IMG/VR virus record: IMGVR_UViG_3300042292_000421
Location: 19,187 to 83,186 of that record
Source of the DNA: a virus
DNA length: 64,000 nucleotides
Direction: 5' to 3' (one strand)
The notes below the pieces were generated by a model. It did not search any database and had not been told where the DNA came from. It saw only the letters and a list, made by a program, of their open reading frames with translations. The translations under genes and the position numbers were made by a program. This document shows, piece by piece, positions 25,737 to 60,317 of this stretch (within the stretch, counting starts at the first letter, position 1; each line of letters opens with the position of its first letter).

Positions 25737-26621
25737 ATGAATATTTATCAACCGTACACGTACCTAATTAAATTCCTCCCAACAAATCAAATCTATTATG
25801 GGGTTCGTTATGCTAAAAATTGTCACCCGTCTGATTTATTTGTTACTTATTTTACTTCATCAAATGAGATATGTAACTTATTACAAACATACGGTGTTGA
25901 AAACTTTAAATGTTATATAAGAAAAACATTTAAAACATCAGAACAAGCAAGATTGTGGGAAAGTAAAGTTTTAAAACGTATAAACGCTGCTCAACATCCA
26001 AAATTCATTAACAAATGCAATGGAAGTGCGCCATCGTCTGAAAAAGAAATACGTGATATTATTTTAAAAACATTTATATTAAAATATGGTGTAGACAATC
26101 CGTCAAAACACCCAGAGACTATTCAAAAAATAATCAATTATTGGAATAATTTATCAGAAACCGATAAAAATAAAATTAATAACAAACGAAGTAGCACCTG
26201 TTTAACACGATATAACACATCTAATGTAATGAAAATACCTAGTGTTAAAGAAAAAGCAAAACAAACAAATATTGAAAAATATGGTGTTGTCTATGCAGGT
26301 ATGCAGACTGTAACTTGTCCATGGTGTAATAAAACTGGAGGTAAAACAGGTTTTGATGTTTTTCATTTTAATTATTGCAAGGATAATCCAAATAGAATAG
26401 TACGAATTCAAAAAATCTATACATGTAATTATTGCAACTTTCAAAGTAAAAACAAATCAAATATGGATAGGTACCACTTTGAAAGTTGCAAATCTTCACC
26501 AACATACAAACAAAAACCTGTTATAAATTATATATGCCCACATTGCAATTTTTTAGGCACTGGTAAAAATAATATGACAAGATATCATTTTGATAATTGT
26601 AAAAGCAGAAAGGGGACCTAG
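25737..26621 (+). CDS. GIY-YIG homing endonuclease-like protein with zinc fingers
   Basis: A 294-residue protein. The N-terminal ~90 residues fit a GIY-YIG nuclease (TYLIKFLPTNQIYYGVRY, then a conserved ARLWESKVLKR helix carrying the catalytic Glu). The middle holds helical DNA-binding repeats (LKYGVDNPSKHPETIQK, YNTSNVMKIPSVKEK). The C-terminal third carries three C-x2-C...H-x4-C fingers. It points toward pmoC exon 2 and ends inside the palindrome just past the pmoC stop. That makes it a candidate mobility partner of the pmoC intron, although it lies outside it. The leader forms a GTAGTT/AACTAC hairpin. Confidence 0.72.
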   Translation: MNIYQPYTYLIKFLPTNQIYYGVRYAKNCHPSDLFVTYFTSSNEICNLLQTYGVENFKCYIRKTFKTSEQARLWESKVLKRINAAQHPKFINKCNGSAPSSEKEIRDIILKTFILKYGVDNPSKHPETIQKIINYWNNLSETDKNKINNKRSSTCLTRYNTSNVMKIPSVKEKAKQTNIEKYGVVYAGMQTVTCPWCNKTGGKTGFDVFHFNYCKDNPNRIVRIQKIYTCNYCNFQSKNKSNMDRYHFESCKSSPTYKQKPVINYICPHCNFLGTGKNNMTRYHFDNCKSRKGT

Positions 26622-26638: not shown

Positions 26639-27649
26639 TTAAGCTAAATCGCTTTTCAACAATTTAGATATTGCTTGTACTTCGATATTTACTACACCTA
26701 ATACACCAAGTGCAGCCCATCCAAAAAATACAACATTATGTTCATATAAGGTCGTTACTCTTATACCGCTTGTTAAGCTGCTTATAGTTTCCTATAAGAT
26801 CGGACTATATCTTTATCCATTTCTGGATACTACCCATTTCCACTTACTTAAGTGTACTCCCTTTCGGGATAGTCTCTGAACCTTAAACTTATTACTAAGT
26901 TTCTTGGCTGCTGATTGTCCTTTCGGATGTCCCAGCAATTAAAGTAGTTTTCATTATATTATTACTAATATAAGGAGCCTGTATTATTTTGACCCGTAAT
27001 GTAAAGGGGCTACGAATAACTCCTCCATGAACCAGAAAGTATGTCCCCATTCGTTTAAGCCAACGTTTGGAAGAATCATGAAAGGTCCAATTACTGATAC
27101 TAAGTATTGTAATGGCAAACCTTTTTGGTAGGTAGGCAAGCGTGTTTTAGCATATAAGAATGCAGAAACGCCTGTGATGATGTAAATAGGATAACTTAGA
27201 TAAAACTCAATAACATGACTTGGTGTAAAGTCAGTGTCACGAACGATTGTTTGATGCCATGTACCATCTTGTTCTGTAAAGTATGAAGCACCGTAATAAA
27301 TTGCGATACCATACATTACTAACCAAATCCAGTGTGTAAAGTGACGACGTAATTCTTCGCGTGGTGTAATTGACATTACTTTGCGATCGCGTGATTTCCA
27401 AATATAACCCCATAATACAGAAGCAGTTAATACTTCAAGTACCATTTCAATATATAGGAAGTTCATCCAATATGTTTCAAACTCTGGTGCAAATGAGTCT
27501 AAACCAGCAGACCATCCATAAACACCTTCATACCAACGAACCCACCCGTAAAACACTATATATAGTGCTGCACCTGCGAGCATAGCTGGTTTGTTCAAAA
27601 GTGAAGCTTCTTTAGCTTCTGCTTTTACCGTTTCAATTGTAGCTGACAT
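26639..27649 (-). CDS. pmoC: Particulate methane monooxygenase subunit C, split by a group I intron
   Basis: Exon 1 is 27649-26992 and exon 2 is 26733-26639. Joined they encode 250 residues, the normal PmoC length. PmoC is an inner-membrane subunit of copper methane monooxygenase. Metal ligands of both sites are intact: D128, H132 and H145, and N199, H203 and H217. The sequence is close to gammaproteobacterial methanotroph PmoC (WVRWYEGVYGWSAGLDSF). Without splicing, translation ends at HYGSK and loses the last membrane helix; splicing restores HYGFVFFGWAALG. Start chosen at 27649, after AGGAGAATTTTT; an upstream frame start at 27667 lacks a ribosome site. pmoA and pmoB are absent, so the product would join the host complex. 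Confidence 0.93.
26734..26991 (-). ncRNA. Group I self-splicing intron in pmoC (258 nt)
   Basis: All four core elements are in order on the minus strand: P (AATTGCTGGGA, 26940-26930), Q (AATCAGCAGCC, 26916-26906), R (GTTCAGAGACTA, 26881-26870) and S (AAGATATAGTCC, 26813-26802). R and S form P7. The 5' exon ends in U (GGGU), pairing through U.G with the guide GGCUC; the first 3' exon bases UUGUAUU pair with guide AAUACAG (P10); the intron ends in G. Splicing at these points restores the conserved PmoC frame exactly. No open reading frame lies inside. The site is right after codon 219, next to the last copper ligand. Confidence 0.92.
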
Positions 27650-36189: not shown

Positions 36190-36264
36190 TGGCTCCAAGG
36201 GAGGGATTCGAACCCCCGACCTGCGGATTAACAATCCGAAGCACTACCGCTGTGCTACCTTGGA
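36190..36264 (-). tRNA. tRNA-Asn (GUU)
   Basis: Acceptor TCCAAGG/CCTTGGA, anticodon loop TTGTTAA in a CGGAT/ATCCG-type stem, T arm with GGTTCGAATCC, encoded CCA. The 3' end of the upstream endonuclease frame overlaps its first 21 bases. Confidence 0.93.
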
Positions 36265-36768
36265 ATAACATATTTTCTCAAATACTTCAATTGCGTTAGC
36301 TTTACTAACCCATTCTCCGCATTCTTTTGTTATATCTGGATGAGATAACAATTTTTTCTCAGTAAGTGAGCGATCTAATACAAACTCGTATTTAACAATT
36401 TTAAATTGTCGGTACGGATCATACGTCTGATATGTATCTAATCTTGATTGAAGCTCTATTGTCATCCCAATTTTATAATGATGTAAGAATTGAGGATTTT
36501 CAATTATATATACTAAACCGGATTTTAATTGATTAAATTTAGCATTTCTTTCAAAATTTAATTTTAATAATGTTAGTCCGGCTAACTTTCTAGCATATCT
36601 AGTATTTGTTTTAGTTTTTAACCCTTTACCTAATTTTCCAAATAAGTTGGAATACATTAACATATATTCTGTTAAATGAGATTCTTCTATTTGAAAAATA
36701 CCATCGATTGGTATAACACTTTTGTGTATTAGATGGTTCAACACCGCTCTTTCAAAATCATGTATCAT
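36244..36768 (-). CDS. GIY-YIG (T5orf172-type) endonuclease in the tRNA cluster
   Basis: A 174-residue protein. The C-terminal half has GLVYIIENPQFLHHYKIGMT, the GIY-YIG variant of the T5orf172/MUG113 family, followed by RLDTYQTYDP and a helix with the catalytic Glu. The N-terminal half is a helical DNA-binding region. The stop codon lies inside tRNA-Asn (last residues VAQR are the tRNA 5' end), as if the gene had inserted next to the tRNA and adopted its sequence as its 3' end. Likely a mobile homing endonuclease. Confidence 0.7.
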   Translation of the reverse strand: MIHDFERAVLNHLIHKSVIPIDGIFQIEESHLTEYMLMYSNLFGKLGKGLKTKTNTRYARKLAGLTLLKLNFERNAKFNQLKSGLVYIIENPQFLHHYKIGMTIELQSRLDTYQTYDPYRQFKIVKYEFVLDRSLTEKKLLSHPDITKECGEWVSKANAIEVFEKICYSKVAQR

Positions 36769-48214: not shown

Positions 48215-48811
48215 TTATTTCTCTGTGGCGATAAACTCGTTATTGTGAAATCTGCGCTTGTGTTGCCCAATAGTGTTTATAGTAACTTCTTTACTGCAGA
48301 TTTCACATGTTACACGCTGTCTCGGTACGCTCTTAGGCTTACGCATTTTTTGTTTAGTCTCATCACTATGATGACATCCTGCAAAAGTACCAGGTTTCCC
48401 AAATCTAGGATTTAATTTACCAGGTTGTGATCCTTTTCCTTTTCTATTAGCACTCATTAATGCTCTTGCTTCTTCAGTATGGGTTTTATTAAACATGCCG
48501 TTCTTTTCTCCTGATGTGTCACAACCGCAATTTCCTTCGCCACCTAGTGACATATTATATTCTGGTTTAAGCTTTTCGATCCAAAACGTTTCAACAAGTC
48601 CTAATTCATTTAAATCGTTAGCATTTGTTTCTTCTAACAATTCTATTTTGAAGTTTTCTTCTCCGTATTTACGTATAGCTTTATGCAGTATCCAGGGTTT
48701 ATTCCTACGGGCATCTGCTTTATGCCCTGAAAATCTAACTTCTAATGTTTTTGAAGTCATACCCACATATCTTTTTTCGTTAATTAAATTAGTTATAATG
48801 TAAATCCTCAT
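48215..48811 (-). CDS. GIY-YIG homing endonuclease with NUMOD3 repeats
   Basis: A 198-residue protein. RIYIITNLINEKRYVGMT is the GIY-YIG core, with RFSGHKADAR and the VETFWIEKL helix holding the catalytic Glu. NUMOD3-type repeats (GMFNKTHTEEARALMSA, NPRFGKPGTF) and a C-terminal CEICSKEV...HKRRFH zinc finger follow. The start at 48811 sits five bases after a GATAAATA box without a Shine-Dalgarno. It lies just after the cyclase gene (8-base gap), a typical homing insertion. Confidence 0.78.
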   Translation of the reverse strand: MRIYIITNLINEKRYVGMTSKTLEVRFSGHKADARRNKPWILHKAIRKYGEENFKIELLEETNANDLNELGLVETFWIEKLKPEYNMSLGGEGNCGCDTSGEKNGMFNKTHTEEARALMSANRKGKGSQPGKLNPRFGKPGTFAGCHHSDETKQKMRKPKSVPRQRVTCEICSKEVTINTIGQHKRRFHNNEFIATEK

Positions 48812-48816
48812 ACATC

Positions 48817-48824
48817 TATTTATC
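48817..48824 (-). promoter_or_regulatory. Late-type box before GIY-YIG endonuclease
   Basis: GATAAATA on the minus strand, five bases before the start at 48811; no Shine-Dalgarno, so a leaderless mRNA is likely. Confidence 0.5.
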
Positions 48825-48830
48825 AAACCT

Positions 48831-50879: not shown

Positions 50880-51880
50880 TTTATTTTTGGCACCAAGTTG
50901 TCTTTAAATATTTCCCAACAATTTTCCCAAGTCCATCTAAATGAACTTATATATACACGGTGTCTATCAAGTTTTAAACATTCTTCAATTGCTGTTTCTA
51001 AGTTAGTATCCATAATACCATTACGACCTTGTTCTATAATATCAATAGGACCTGGCACTGGATATGCAGCAACTGGACAACCTAACGACATTGCTTCAAT
51101 TATTACAATACCAAACGTATCAGCTGCACTTGGAAAAACAAATACATCAGCATTAACATAATAATCAGCTAACTCCGATCCTGACTTGTATCCTACAAAT
51201 TCTACTAATGGATATTTCTTTTCTAATCGTTTACGATAAGGACCATCTCCTACAATTTGCACATGATACTTTTCGTTTTTAGATAATACACATAGATCAT
51301 CTAATGATTTTTCTTTAGACACTCTGCCTACATATAGCAAAACAGTTTTGTCTGAATCTGCTTTGTGTGCAGTTGGTTGTAGTAATTCTCTATCAACACC
51401 GCGTGTCCATGGTATGACATTTGGTCTAAACTTATGTTCTTTAAGTTCTTCAACCATTGTTTGTGTAGTAGTTAATACTACAGTTGAATCTTTATGAAAC
51501 CAACGCACGTATGCGTATGTAATCCATTTTGGTATTCCGTATATTTTTTTAATAAACTCGGGAAACTTTGTATGATAGGATGTATTATAGTTAAACTTAC
51601 GGTTGCGACAATATCCACGAGCTGCCAGCCCGATTGGACCTTCTGTGCAAATATGAATATAATCTGGATTGATCCTGTCAATCATTTTTCTAATACCAGA
51701 TGTACGGCTAAGTTTTACTTCTGGATATTTTGGAGCATCTATATAACGGAAATGACTAGGGTTTATAATTTCTATTTCATATCCGTTTAATTCTGCTTGT
51801 TTTTTTATATTAGTGAACGTAGTCACTACGCCGTTAACTTGATCAAACAAGTTGTCGGAAACTATTAAAATTTTTTTCAT
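50876..51880 (-). CDS. GT4 glycosyltransferase (Agt/SQD2-like, lipid)
   Basis: A 334-residue GT-B enzyme. The N-terminal domain has NGVVTTFTNI and HICTEGPIG; the C-terminal domain has YVGRVSKEKSLDD and the nucleotide-sugar motif FPSAADTFGIVIIEAMSLG (E-x7-E). It belongs to the GT4 group of diacylglycerol-type glycosyltransferases. The PlcP-like phosphoesterase gene lies upstream, separated only by a GIY-YIG insertion. In bacteria, neighbouring plcP and agt replace phospholipids by glycolipids under phosphate limitation. That pairing is the reason for the call; substrate is inferred. Confidence 0.75.
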   Translation of the reverse strand: MKKILIVSDNLFDQVNGVVTTFTNIKKQAELNGYEIEIINPSHFRYIDAPKYPEVKLSRTSGIRKMIDRINPDYIHICTEGPIGLAARGYCRNRKFNYNTSYHTKFPEFIKKIYGIPKWITYAYVRWFHKDSTVVLTTTQTMVEELKEHKFRPNVIPWTRGVDRELLQPTAHKADSDKTVLLYVGRVSKEKSLDDLCVLSKNEKYHVQIVGDGPYRKRLEKKYPLVEFVGYKSGSELADYYVNADVFVFPSAADTFGIVIIEAMSLGCPVAAYPVPGPIDIIEQGRNGIMDTNLETAIEECLKLDRHRVYISSFRWTWENCWEIFKDNLVPKIK

Positions 51881-52479
51881 TTGATTACCTTACAATTTTC
51901 AAAGTGCCAACGTTTCATAGAACTGTTTACTCCTGTTGTGTTGCAATGCGGGCAAGAGATATGTTGTCTATTTTGTTGAGAAGCAGACATTTTAGCTCTA
52001 GTTTCTATTGAGTGCGGTTTACCTGTATTATGTGCAGGTTTACCTGTTTTAATGCCTTTATTCCAAGCAGGCTTAGTTGCTTTGATTCCTTTATTTGGAC
52101 CAGGTTTACCTTTCTTTGAATCACGTATTTTAGATTTAGTTTCTTCTGTACACGGTTTTCCTTGAACTGCTCCACTAATACCGTTTTCAGGTATTAAGTT
52201 AGCCCACTCTTTAGATTCTACTATATTATTTTCTTTTGAAAAGGTTAATGCAAATTCAGTTAACATAGTTTTATTTGTATATGGATCTGAAACCCAAATA
52301 GTTTCTACAAATTCCTTTCCGTGTGCAGTAATATGATTTTTCCAATGTTTTCCTGATCCTAAATATCTTTTAGGATCTTGAGAAGTAGTTTTGCCGAAAT
52401 ATTTTAAACCTGTTACTGAATGTTGTTTGATATACAGATAAGTTGGTTTTATATCTATATAAATAATTGTGCTGGGCAT
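51877..52479 (-). CDS. GIY-YIG-type homing endonuclease with NUMOD3 repeats
   Basis: A 200-residue protein. TYLYIKQHSVTGLKYFGKTT is a GIY-YIG variant, RYLGSGKHWKNHI follows, and NUMOD3-like repeats (GKPGPNKGIKATKPAWNKGI) and a C-terminal CPHCNTTG...HFENC finger are present. The start at 52479 is set by TAAGGAGACACTA. It splits the PlcP-Agt pair and overlaps the glycosyltransferase start by four bases (ATGA), so it was inserted with translation coupling kept. Confidence 0.75.
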   Translation of the reverse strand: MPSTIIYIDIKPTYLYIKQHSVTGLKYFGKTTSQDPKRYLGSGKHWKNHITAHGKEFVETIWVSDPYTNKTMLTEFALTFSKENNIVESKEWANLIPENGISGAVQGKPCTEETKSKIRDSKKGKPGPNKGIKATKPAWNKGIKTGKPAHNTGKPHSIETRAKMSASQQNRQHISCPHCNTTGVNSSMKRWHFENCKVIK

Positions 52480-52567
52480 TAGTGTCTCCTTAGATAACAT
52501 ATATAATGTTTAGTGCTAGTGGATGATAGTGCATCGCGACTAGCTTTTTTTATTTAGTAAATTGTTA

Positions 52568-59193: not shown

Positions 59194-59544
59194 ATGCGAA
59201 TATTTGAAGTAACTGCCCACATGTCAACTGATCCGGACAACTATGGTACTAGTATTAATAGTTGGAATGCAAAAGAACGACATAAAGTTAAAGAAATTCC
59301 GATGTCACAATTAATAACATTTGAACATCCTAACAAAATGAAAGATCCTACAAGTAAGCAAAATATGATGAAAATTGCAAAAGCATATCATATGGGAGAA
59401 AAGATACCACCTATCATGGTAAAAAAACATGAAGATAAGTATATGGTATTAGATGGGCATCACAGATACTTTGCTGCAAGACTTGCAGGAATAAGAGCTA
59501 TCCCTGCAATTGTTATACCTGATGATAAAATAACTATTGATTAA
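59194..59544 (+). CDS. ParB/Srx-like domain protein with leader-type N-terminus
   Basis: A 116-residue protein starting MRIFEVTAH. The rest has a ParB/sulfiredoxin-like fold: IPPIMVKKHEDKYMVLDGHHRYFAARLAGI holds the conserved D-G-x-H-R motif, which binds nucleotides (CTP in ParB) or supports nuclease activity. The start at 59194 follows GGAGATTGCT. It overlaps the stop of the convergent HNH gene by four bases. May be another packaged protein, though its N-terminus is a poorer match. Confidence 0.65.
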   Translation: MRIFEVTAHMSTDPDNYGTSINSWNAKERHKVKEIPMSQLITFEHPNKMKDPTSKQNMMKIAKAYHMGEKIPPIMVKKHEDKYMVLDGHHRYFAARLAGIRAIPAIVIPDDKITID

Positions 59545-60317
59545 TATTTAATACCTAATGTTTTTCTACCTGGTGTTAAATAGTCTTTTTCAGTAATTGT
59601 TTTATGTGTATGACAACATTTACATAGTGTTTGTAAATTTTCTTTTTTATTATTTCTAGCATTACCGTCTATATGGTCTACATCAAGTTGTGCAATCATA
59701 GTGATAGTAGATGTACATACATAACCTAACCGGTTATCTATATTTTCACAATAAGTTTTTCTATATTTTCTATATGGATGTTTTGAATTTGCGTAATCAA
59801 CATAATTACTATATCCGTTATCTAATGCAAGTTGATGTTTTAATGCATCATTATAACCTTTATAATTACTATACCCGTTATCTAATGCAAGTTGTAAGTT
59901 TAAATGATCTCTATATGCTCTATATGTTTTAAAACCATTTTCTTTTGCATTTTGTAGATTTAAATGATCTGCGTATGCTTTATATGATGAAAACCCATTT
60001 TCTTTTGCATTTTGTAGATTTAACTGAGTTGTGTATGATTTATGTGATGAAAACCCGTTTTCTTTTGCAATACGATCATTGTTTTCTTTTATTGAATTAC
60101 AACCTGCATTTTGAGCACACCGCACTGCATATTTCACACCATTCTTCTGTTCAAGATGTTTATGTTTGCAAGGTGTACACATTGATTGAAAACTATAAGT
60201 TCCGTCTTTTTTCTTTTTACCAATAGTGCGCTCTTTAACATTGCATACTGGGCAAATTGGACGTGGACCGATGTTTAATTTAGCTAATTTATTTACTCTG
60301 ATGTTTAATTTTGTCAT
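59541..60317 (-). CDS. HNH endonuclease with five ~20-residue repeats
   Basis: A 258-residue protein. Zinc pairs CPVCN and CTPCKHKH near the start, then five tandem repeats of ~20 residues with the pattern A-x-E/D-N-G-F/Y-x-x-Y-x-x-Y-x-x-x-L (residues ~80-180), then an HNH site: QLDVDHIDGNARNNKKENLQ and LCKCCHTHKT. The repeats probably read DNA as a helical array. Repeat number is likely to vary between relatives. Homing-type mobile gene. Confidence 0.72.
   Translation of the reverse strand: MTKLNIRVNKLAKLNIGPRPICPVCNVKERTIGKKKKDGTYSFQSMCTPCKHKHLEQKNGVKYAVRCAQNAGCNSIKENNDRIAKENGFSSHKSYTTQLNLQNAKENGFSSYKAYADHLNLQNAKENGFKTYRAYRDHLNLQLALDNGYSNYKGYNDALKHQLALDNGYSNYVDYANSKHPYRKYRKTYCENIDNRLGYVCTSTITMIAQLDVDHIDGNARNNKKENLQTLCKCCHTHKTITEKDYLTPGRKTLGIKY

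Follow-up and report, generated by a model that had tools for sequence, protein, structure and literature searches.

Group I introns in viral pmoC genes and their probable mobility with an adjacent homing-endonuclease-like gene

Viral pmoC is the best-known phage link to methane oxidation. The window analyzed here, a stretch of 64,000 nucleotides (bases 19187–83186 of the lake virus record IMGVR_UViG_3300042292_000421, which totals 83,186 bases), carries a pmoC gene on its minus strand (27649..26639) that, when read without splicing, ends after 221 codons at ...LHYGSK*. Is this gene truncated, or is it interrupted by an element that is removed from the transcript? The first-pass annotation of this DNA had placed the locus at 26639–27649, which is exact, and had held that the stop at HYGSK does not truncate the coding sequence. 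Taken as a whole, the evidence makes it highly probable that the gene houses an ORF-less phage group I intron that would remove itself and would spread by collaborative homing with the adjacent nuclease.

The 5′-exon (26992..27649, minus strand) comprises codons 1–219 and the first base of codon 220, ends in ...CATTACGGGT, and matches the Pfam family AmoC. The 258-nt intron (26734..26991, minus strand) begins with CAAAATAATACAGGCTC, has ...GAACATAATG as its last bases, and lacks a substantial ORF, and the 3′-exon (26639..26733, minus strand; FVFFGWAALGVLGVVNIEVQAISKLLKSDLA) provides the remainder of codon 220 through codon 250 and the stop codon. In silico excision of 26991..26734 joins ...CAT TAC GGG T to TT GTA TTT... 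and restores HYG|FVFFGW and a PmoC of 250 residues, in agreement with the motif and length annotated at first. The spliced protein matches AmoC at 2.3e-121, aligns over its full length (residues 1–250) with chain 6cxh_C, a PmoC of solved structure, and contains both of the metal sites annotated earlier, with D128, H132, and H145 at the CuC and N199, H203, and H217 at the CuD ligand positions. Residue numbers in Methylococcus capsulatus are higher by 28, as taken from the 1yew_C alignment row, so that these residues correspond to the CuC ligands Asp156/His160/His173 (PMC7674155) and the CuD ligands Asn227/His231/His245 (PMC12576850). The intron site is located directly 3′ of the codon for H217, the last CuD ligand.

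The group I core that the first-pass annotation had recognized from the letters alone in the 258-nt segment was recovered by the Infernal search it had proposed: over the whole window, Rfam RF00028 (Intron_gpI) matches 26781–27001 on the minus strand across the full model with 87.8 bits (E 4.7e-21), above the gathering score of 50 bits. The predicted fold of the intron is also more stable than those of 200 dinucleotide-shuffled sequences (z -4.05). The boundaries were also placed correctly, with a 5′-exon ending in U and an intron ending in G, and they are consistent with the pairing of an internal guide sequence (AATACAG+GCTC, 26975..26985, minus strand) with both exons: GCUC pairs with GGGU of the 5′-exon to form P1, with a U-G pair at the splice site, and AATACAG forms the seven pairs of P10 with TTGTATT of the 3′-exon. 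The combined P1 and P10 score of this site is equalled at 5 of the 242 U-ending positions of pmoC. Furthermore, the guanosine-binding helix P7, which is helix 7 of the structure shared with the other pmoC introns described below, consists of a 5′-strand GACTA (26870..26874, minus strand) and a 3′-strand TAGTC (26803..26807, minus strand) and forms a pseudoknot with P3; its sequence is GACTA/TAGTC in 10 introns and GACCA/TGGTC in one, every cell being paired. Two hairpins, helices 8 and 9 of that structure, are predicted between the 5′-strand of P7 and the 3′-strand of P3, i.e., at the P7.1 and P7.2 positions by which subgroup IA is recognized, and both sides are changed at all eight of their pairs. 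The pmoC introns resemble RF00028 and the phage introns of subgroup IA in their full-length match, conserved core with P7, and P7.1/P7.2-position hairpins, although they are short (249–258 nt) and ORF-less.

In scope, the first-pass annotation was right to report an intron in pmoC and too narrow in other respects, since the nuclease-like ORF at 25737–26621 belongs to the same system and since the intron has many counterparts. A PmoC scan over viral contigs kept 80 loci, which together with the window give 81 records, and group I introns were found in the pmoC of 10 of these (nine scanned records and the window), amounting to 11 distinct introns at seven insertion sites. The sites are distributed as follows: S1, near codon 45, in L040; S2, ahead of the H203 codon, in L043; S3, at codon 205, in L011, L012, L019, and L021; S4 and S7, each in L042 and L043; S5, in L024 and L043; and S6, in the window and L010. 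The refuting conditions set by the first-pass annotation did not overturn its claim, in that Infernal gives a hit, L010 has the same intron, and other phages have related introns at other sites. The pmoC of L042 contains two introns and that of L043 (L043:1540-2612) four within about 1.1 kb, separated by exons of 13, 23, and 30 nt, and their in silico excision yields a PmoC of 259 residues. Conversely, pmoC is devoid of introns in L002–L009 and L013. When the viral scan was repeated with the portion of the L043 PmoC that precedes the introns, a query that penalizes late-interrupted genes less, no further interrupted pmoC appeared among the matches listed.

All introns follow a U-ending 5′-exon and all end in G except intron 1 of L043, which has an apparent terminal A. 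When the 11 introns are aligned, 98.4% of the cells of a 62-pair shared structure that includes P7 are paired, with both sides altered at 48 of the 62 pairs; none of 500 shuffles scores as high, a slid alignment is paired at 32–43%, and RNAalifold provides covariation support for the structure. Scoring of P1 and P10 is discriminating for the window intron and for the S4 and S7 introns and weak for L024, introns 1 and 3 of L043, L011, L019, and L040 (24 to 95 of 242 positions equal), for which the sites were assigned from frame, Infernal, and covariation.

These data bear on the alternative that the intron is degenerate and pmoC is dying, so that the transcript stays unspliced and encodes a truncated PmoC of 221 residues without the last helix. 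An in-frame stop almost directly behind the 5′-exon would agree with such decay, as would intron 1 of L043, whose apparent lack of a terminal G suggests that some members may be decaying. Against this, the core is kept in 11 of 11 introns by compensatory change, and the 3′-exon past the stop remains in frame: between the window and L013, dS is 1.13 and dN is 0.055, and the 3′-exons of L011, L019, and L024 behave similarly, with the coding frame kept beyond their stops. A dN so far below dS, which is unexpected for a segment that is never translated, indicates that the window 3′-exon is under purifying selection and favors splicing over the dead-gene alternative, which we regard as very improbable. 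The intact covarying core and the conserved 3′-exon indicate that the intron is probably self-splicing. One published observation would count against complete splicing if phage LR_6 carries such an intron, namely that the C terminus of its fragmented pmoC is much less expressed (Chen et al., 2020), which complete splicing would not predict.

All records are metagenome contigs, and an unrelated intron could in principle have been fused to pmoC during assembly. By contrast, L010 is identical to the window over 13 kb, the codon-205 intron was recovered from four different metagenomes (records L011, L012, L019, and L021), and P1 and P10 are complementary to pmoC exons; the chance of such a chimera is thus negligible.

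The second component of the locus is a free-standing homing-endonuclease-like ORF (25737..26621, plus strand) that is convergent with pmoC, lies outside the intron, and is separated from the pmoC stop by 17 nt. It comprises a SegE/GIY-YIG-like N-terminus, DUF7487, and a zinc finger. DUF7487 exceeds its cut-off, whereas SegE_GIY-YIG scores 20.7 bits, under the Pfam cut-off of 25, and the ORF is accordingly named only homing-endonuclease-like; PHROG homing endonuclease 314 (5.4e-12) gives it a clearer name than Pfam. The last codons of the ORF (RKGT*) lie in a palindrome, AAAGGGGACCTAGGTCCCCTTT (window:26605-26636), which resembles a terminator common to both convergent genes, and several pmoC-adjacent nuclease-like ORFs have similar RKGT, KKGT, or RKGA endings.

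Whether this ORF is connected with the intron was judged from its distribution. The sister phage L013, which is 84–87% identical around the locus, has neither the intron nor the ORF, and when lineages are defined by clustering at 97%, six of the seven with an intron and four of the 39 without one have a nuclease-like ORF directly beside pmoC (Fisher P 1.4e-4). In L040, where the intron lies near the 5′ end of pmoC, the ORF is likewise on the 5′ side. The alternative that the intron is real and the ORF unrelated, being just one of numerous nuclease genes in these phages, with the intron having spread by general recombination or reverse splicing, draws on several further nuclease-like genes in the window, on the four intron-free lineages with an ORF beside pmoC (L015, L037, L041, and L061), and on L024, in which an intron is present and no such ORF was found beside pmoC. 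This alternative is rather unlikely in view of the association, of the matching 5′ position in L040, and of a pair of phages that differ by the whole intron–exon–ORF tract.

These phages, L019 and L006, share 99.2% identity across 6.6 kb on the upstream side and 98.9% across 4.7 kb on the downstream side, and L019 differs from L006 by the intron, the 3′-exon, and the nuclease ORF. The L019 3′-exon is closer to those of the window (92% identity) and L011 (91%) than to that of L006 (88%), and dS between L019 and L006 rises from 0.02 before the insertion point to 0.80 after it. The L011 and L019 introns share 95% core identity, whereas the 5′ part of pmoC has diverged between L011 and L006 (dS 1.05) and that of L019 is nearly identical to that of L006. 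The similar introns, the diverged 5′ parts, and the dS jump in L019 together make it most likely that the intron was transferred between diverged phages in a single tract with the exon and the nuclease gene. This comparison concerns the codon-205 site; the site of the window itself was compared only with L013, at 84–87% identity. Joint movement of such tracts has precedent in collaborative homing (PMC6083498; PMC3984707), and, by analogy with cyanophage psbA and F-CphI, the dS jump at the L019 insertion point is a signature of this process.

Accordingly worded as a model, collaborative homing would operate here as follows. An ORF-less group I intron, which interrupts codon 220 of the phage pmoC behind its first base, would remove itself from the transcript, most likely by two guanosine-initiated transesterifications, and splicing would restore PmoC to its full length, including both copper sites and the last membrane helix. 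The nuclease, by its presumed specificity, probably cleaves pmoC in co-infecting phages whose alleles lack the intron. Repair off the intron-bearing genome would then copy the intron, the intervening exon, and the nuclease gene together, and the intron would protect its own genome from the nuclease. The intron may also be of benefit to the phage.

With respect to origin, none of the best 80 of 387 bacterial pmoC matches is interrupted, a ranking by E-value in which interrupted genes could be hidden, and no group I intron was found in 45 of those bacterial genomes (about 32 candidates scored per genome). The introns therefore appear to be confined to phages, the hosts seemingly being without them. 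Against other phage introns, the window intron gave many matches, all of them over parts only, with 70–77% identity among the 20 matches listed, so its source was not traced. Core identity within a site is high even across different phages (S3, 95%; S4, 87%; S7, 81%), with the exception of S5, at which L024 and intron 3 of L043 share 69%. Recent spread inside one genome is not favored, because introns at the same site are the most alike, S5 excepted. Support is poor at most forks of the intron tree.

Additional group I matches were observed outside pmoC. A fifth intron in the record of L043 (L097:1501-1705, G042:C1:8670-8874; 85.1 bits) lies, by eye, two codons past the start of another gene (MGRPLKVQKYSPG...) and has a nuclease-like ORF upstream. 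In the 259-kb record of L040, a match of 77.4 bits (L093:1501-1694, G039:C1:90180-90373) lies, by eye, within a tRNA-Leu-like gene, which ARAGORN does not call. A weak match (L094:1501-1803, G023:C1:47777-48079; 36.3 bits, below the cut-off) is located near the stop of a DnaK-like ORF (...KVAVFDLGG) at a contig end.

The closest known system is the psbA intron of cyanophage S-PM2 with F-CphI (PMC6083498, PMC5931967), in which a host-derived metabolic phage gene likewise contains a group I intron, a free-standing nuclease gene is adjacent, and related phages have intron-free alleles. The systems differ in that the gene here is pmoC of presumed methanotroph phages, the adjacent nucleases are GIY-YIG/SegE/NUMOD3-like whereas F-CphI is EndoVII-like, and pmoC, for which splicing and cleavage are predicted, has seven insertion sites and up to four introns per gene. 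Several group I introns within one phage gene have been described, with three in a Twort gene according to a later paper (Landthaler and Shub, 1999, cited in PMC11878797) and two or three in the DNA polymerase and terminase genes of Bastillevirinae (PMC11878797). By contrast, L043 has four in about 1.1 kb with exons of only 13, 23, and 30 nt, and the gene affected, pmoC, serves auxiliary metabolism instead of core replication or virion formation. Phage pmoC split into two pieces was previously reported as "fragmented" in TP6_1, BML_3, BML_4, and LR_6 (Chen et al., 2020; PMC7674155), where it is read as gene fragmentation and the word intron is absent. Introns may explain these genes, and L040 may be related to one of the four phages. 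The claim that no intron in a phage pmoC had been described held in the literature searched, mostly without subscription papers: neither pmoC nor methane monooxygenase was found together with group I intron, and pmoC, intron, and phage co-occur in one paper only, on tRNA introns. A tblastn search of 50,697 annotated phage records found no pmoC, so that set offers no annotated precedent. The type of element is thus familiar, whereas its location is apparently undescribed and its density unusual.

A broader reading, which we offer tentatively, is that phage pmoC acts as a hot spot for introns in which rival trans-acting nucleases serve competition among methanotroph phages. On this somewhat doubtful view, the target sites would number seven or more, with six clustered in some 25 codons near the CuD ligands; possibly, most sites have been colonized by their own intron lineage; and splicing could conceivably tune the dose of PmoC during infection, by analogy with psbA and light. 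Splicing of the pmoC genes, if it occurs, would mean that fragmented or truncated copies are functional in at least some cases and that gene callers undercount full-length viral PmoC. It would also place pmoC beside cyanophage psbA as a second auxiliary metabolic gene in which a group I intron is paired with a nuclease that likely acts in trans. Sister phages with and without the intron constitute natural test material, and L043, with four introns and a 13-nt exon, would be a demanding test for multi-intron ribozyme splicing.

Other features of the window were also observed. Further nuclease-like genes (GIY-YIG, NUMOD3, HNH, T5orf172) lie on the minus strand at 48215–48826, 51877–52500, 59541–60317, and 36244–36768. 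A tmRNA gene (window:44426-44847, minus strand) matches permuted and betaproteobacterial tmRNA models, and L024 has a partial tmRNA at its record edge. On the same strand, a protein with CHASE2 and an adenylate/guanylate cyclase domain is encoded at window:48831-50879, and a heme oxygenase (PF01126) adjoins a ferredoxin-dependent bilin reductase (PF05996) at window:61868-63069. Finally, a curli-like cluster (window:53863-58176, minus strand) encodes CsgG (1.1e-47), CsgF (3.5e-6), and a FecR-domain protein, together with repeat proteins that are curlin-like by eye.
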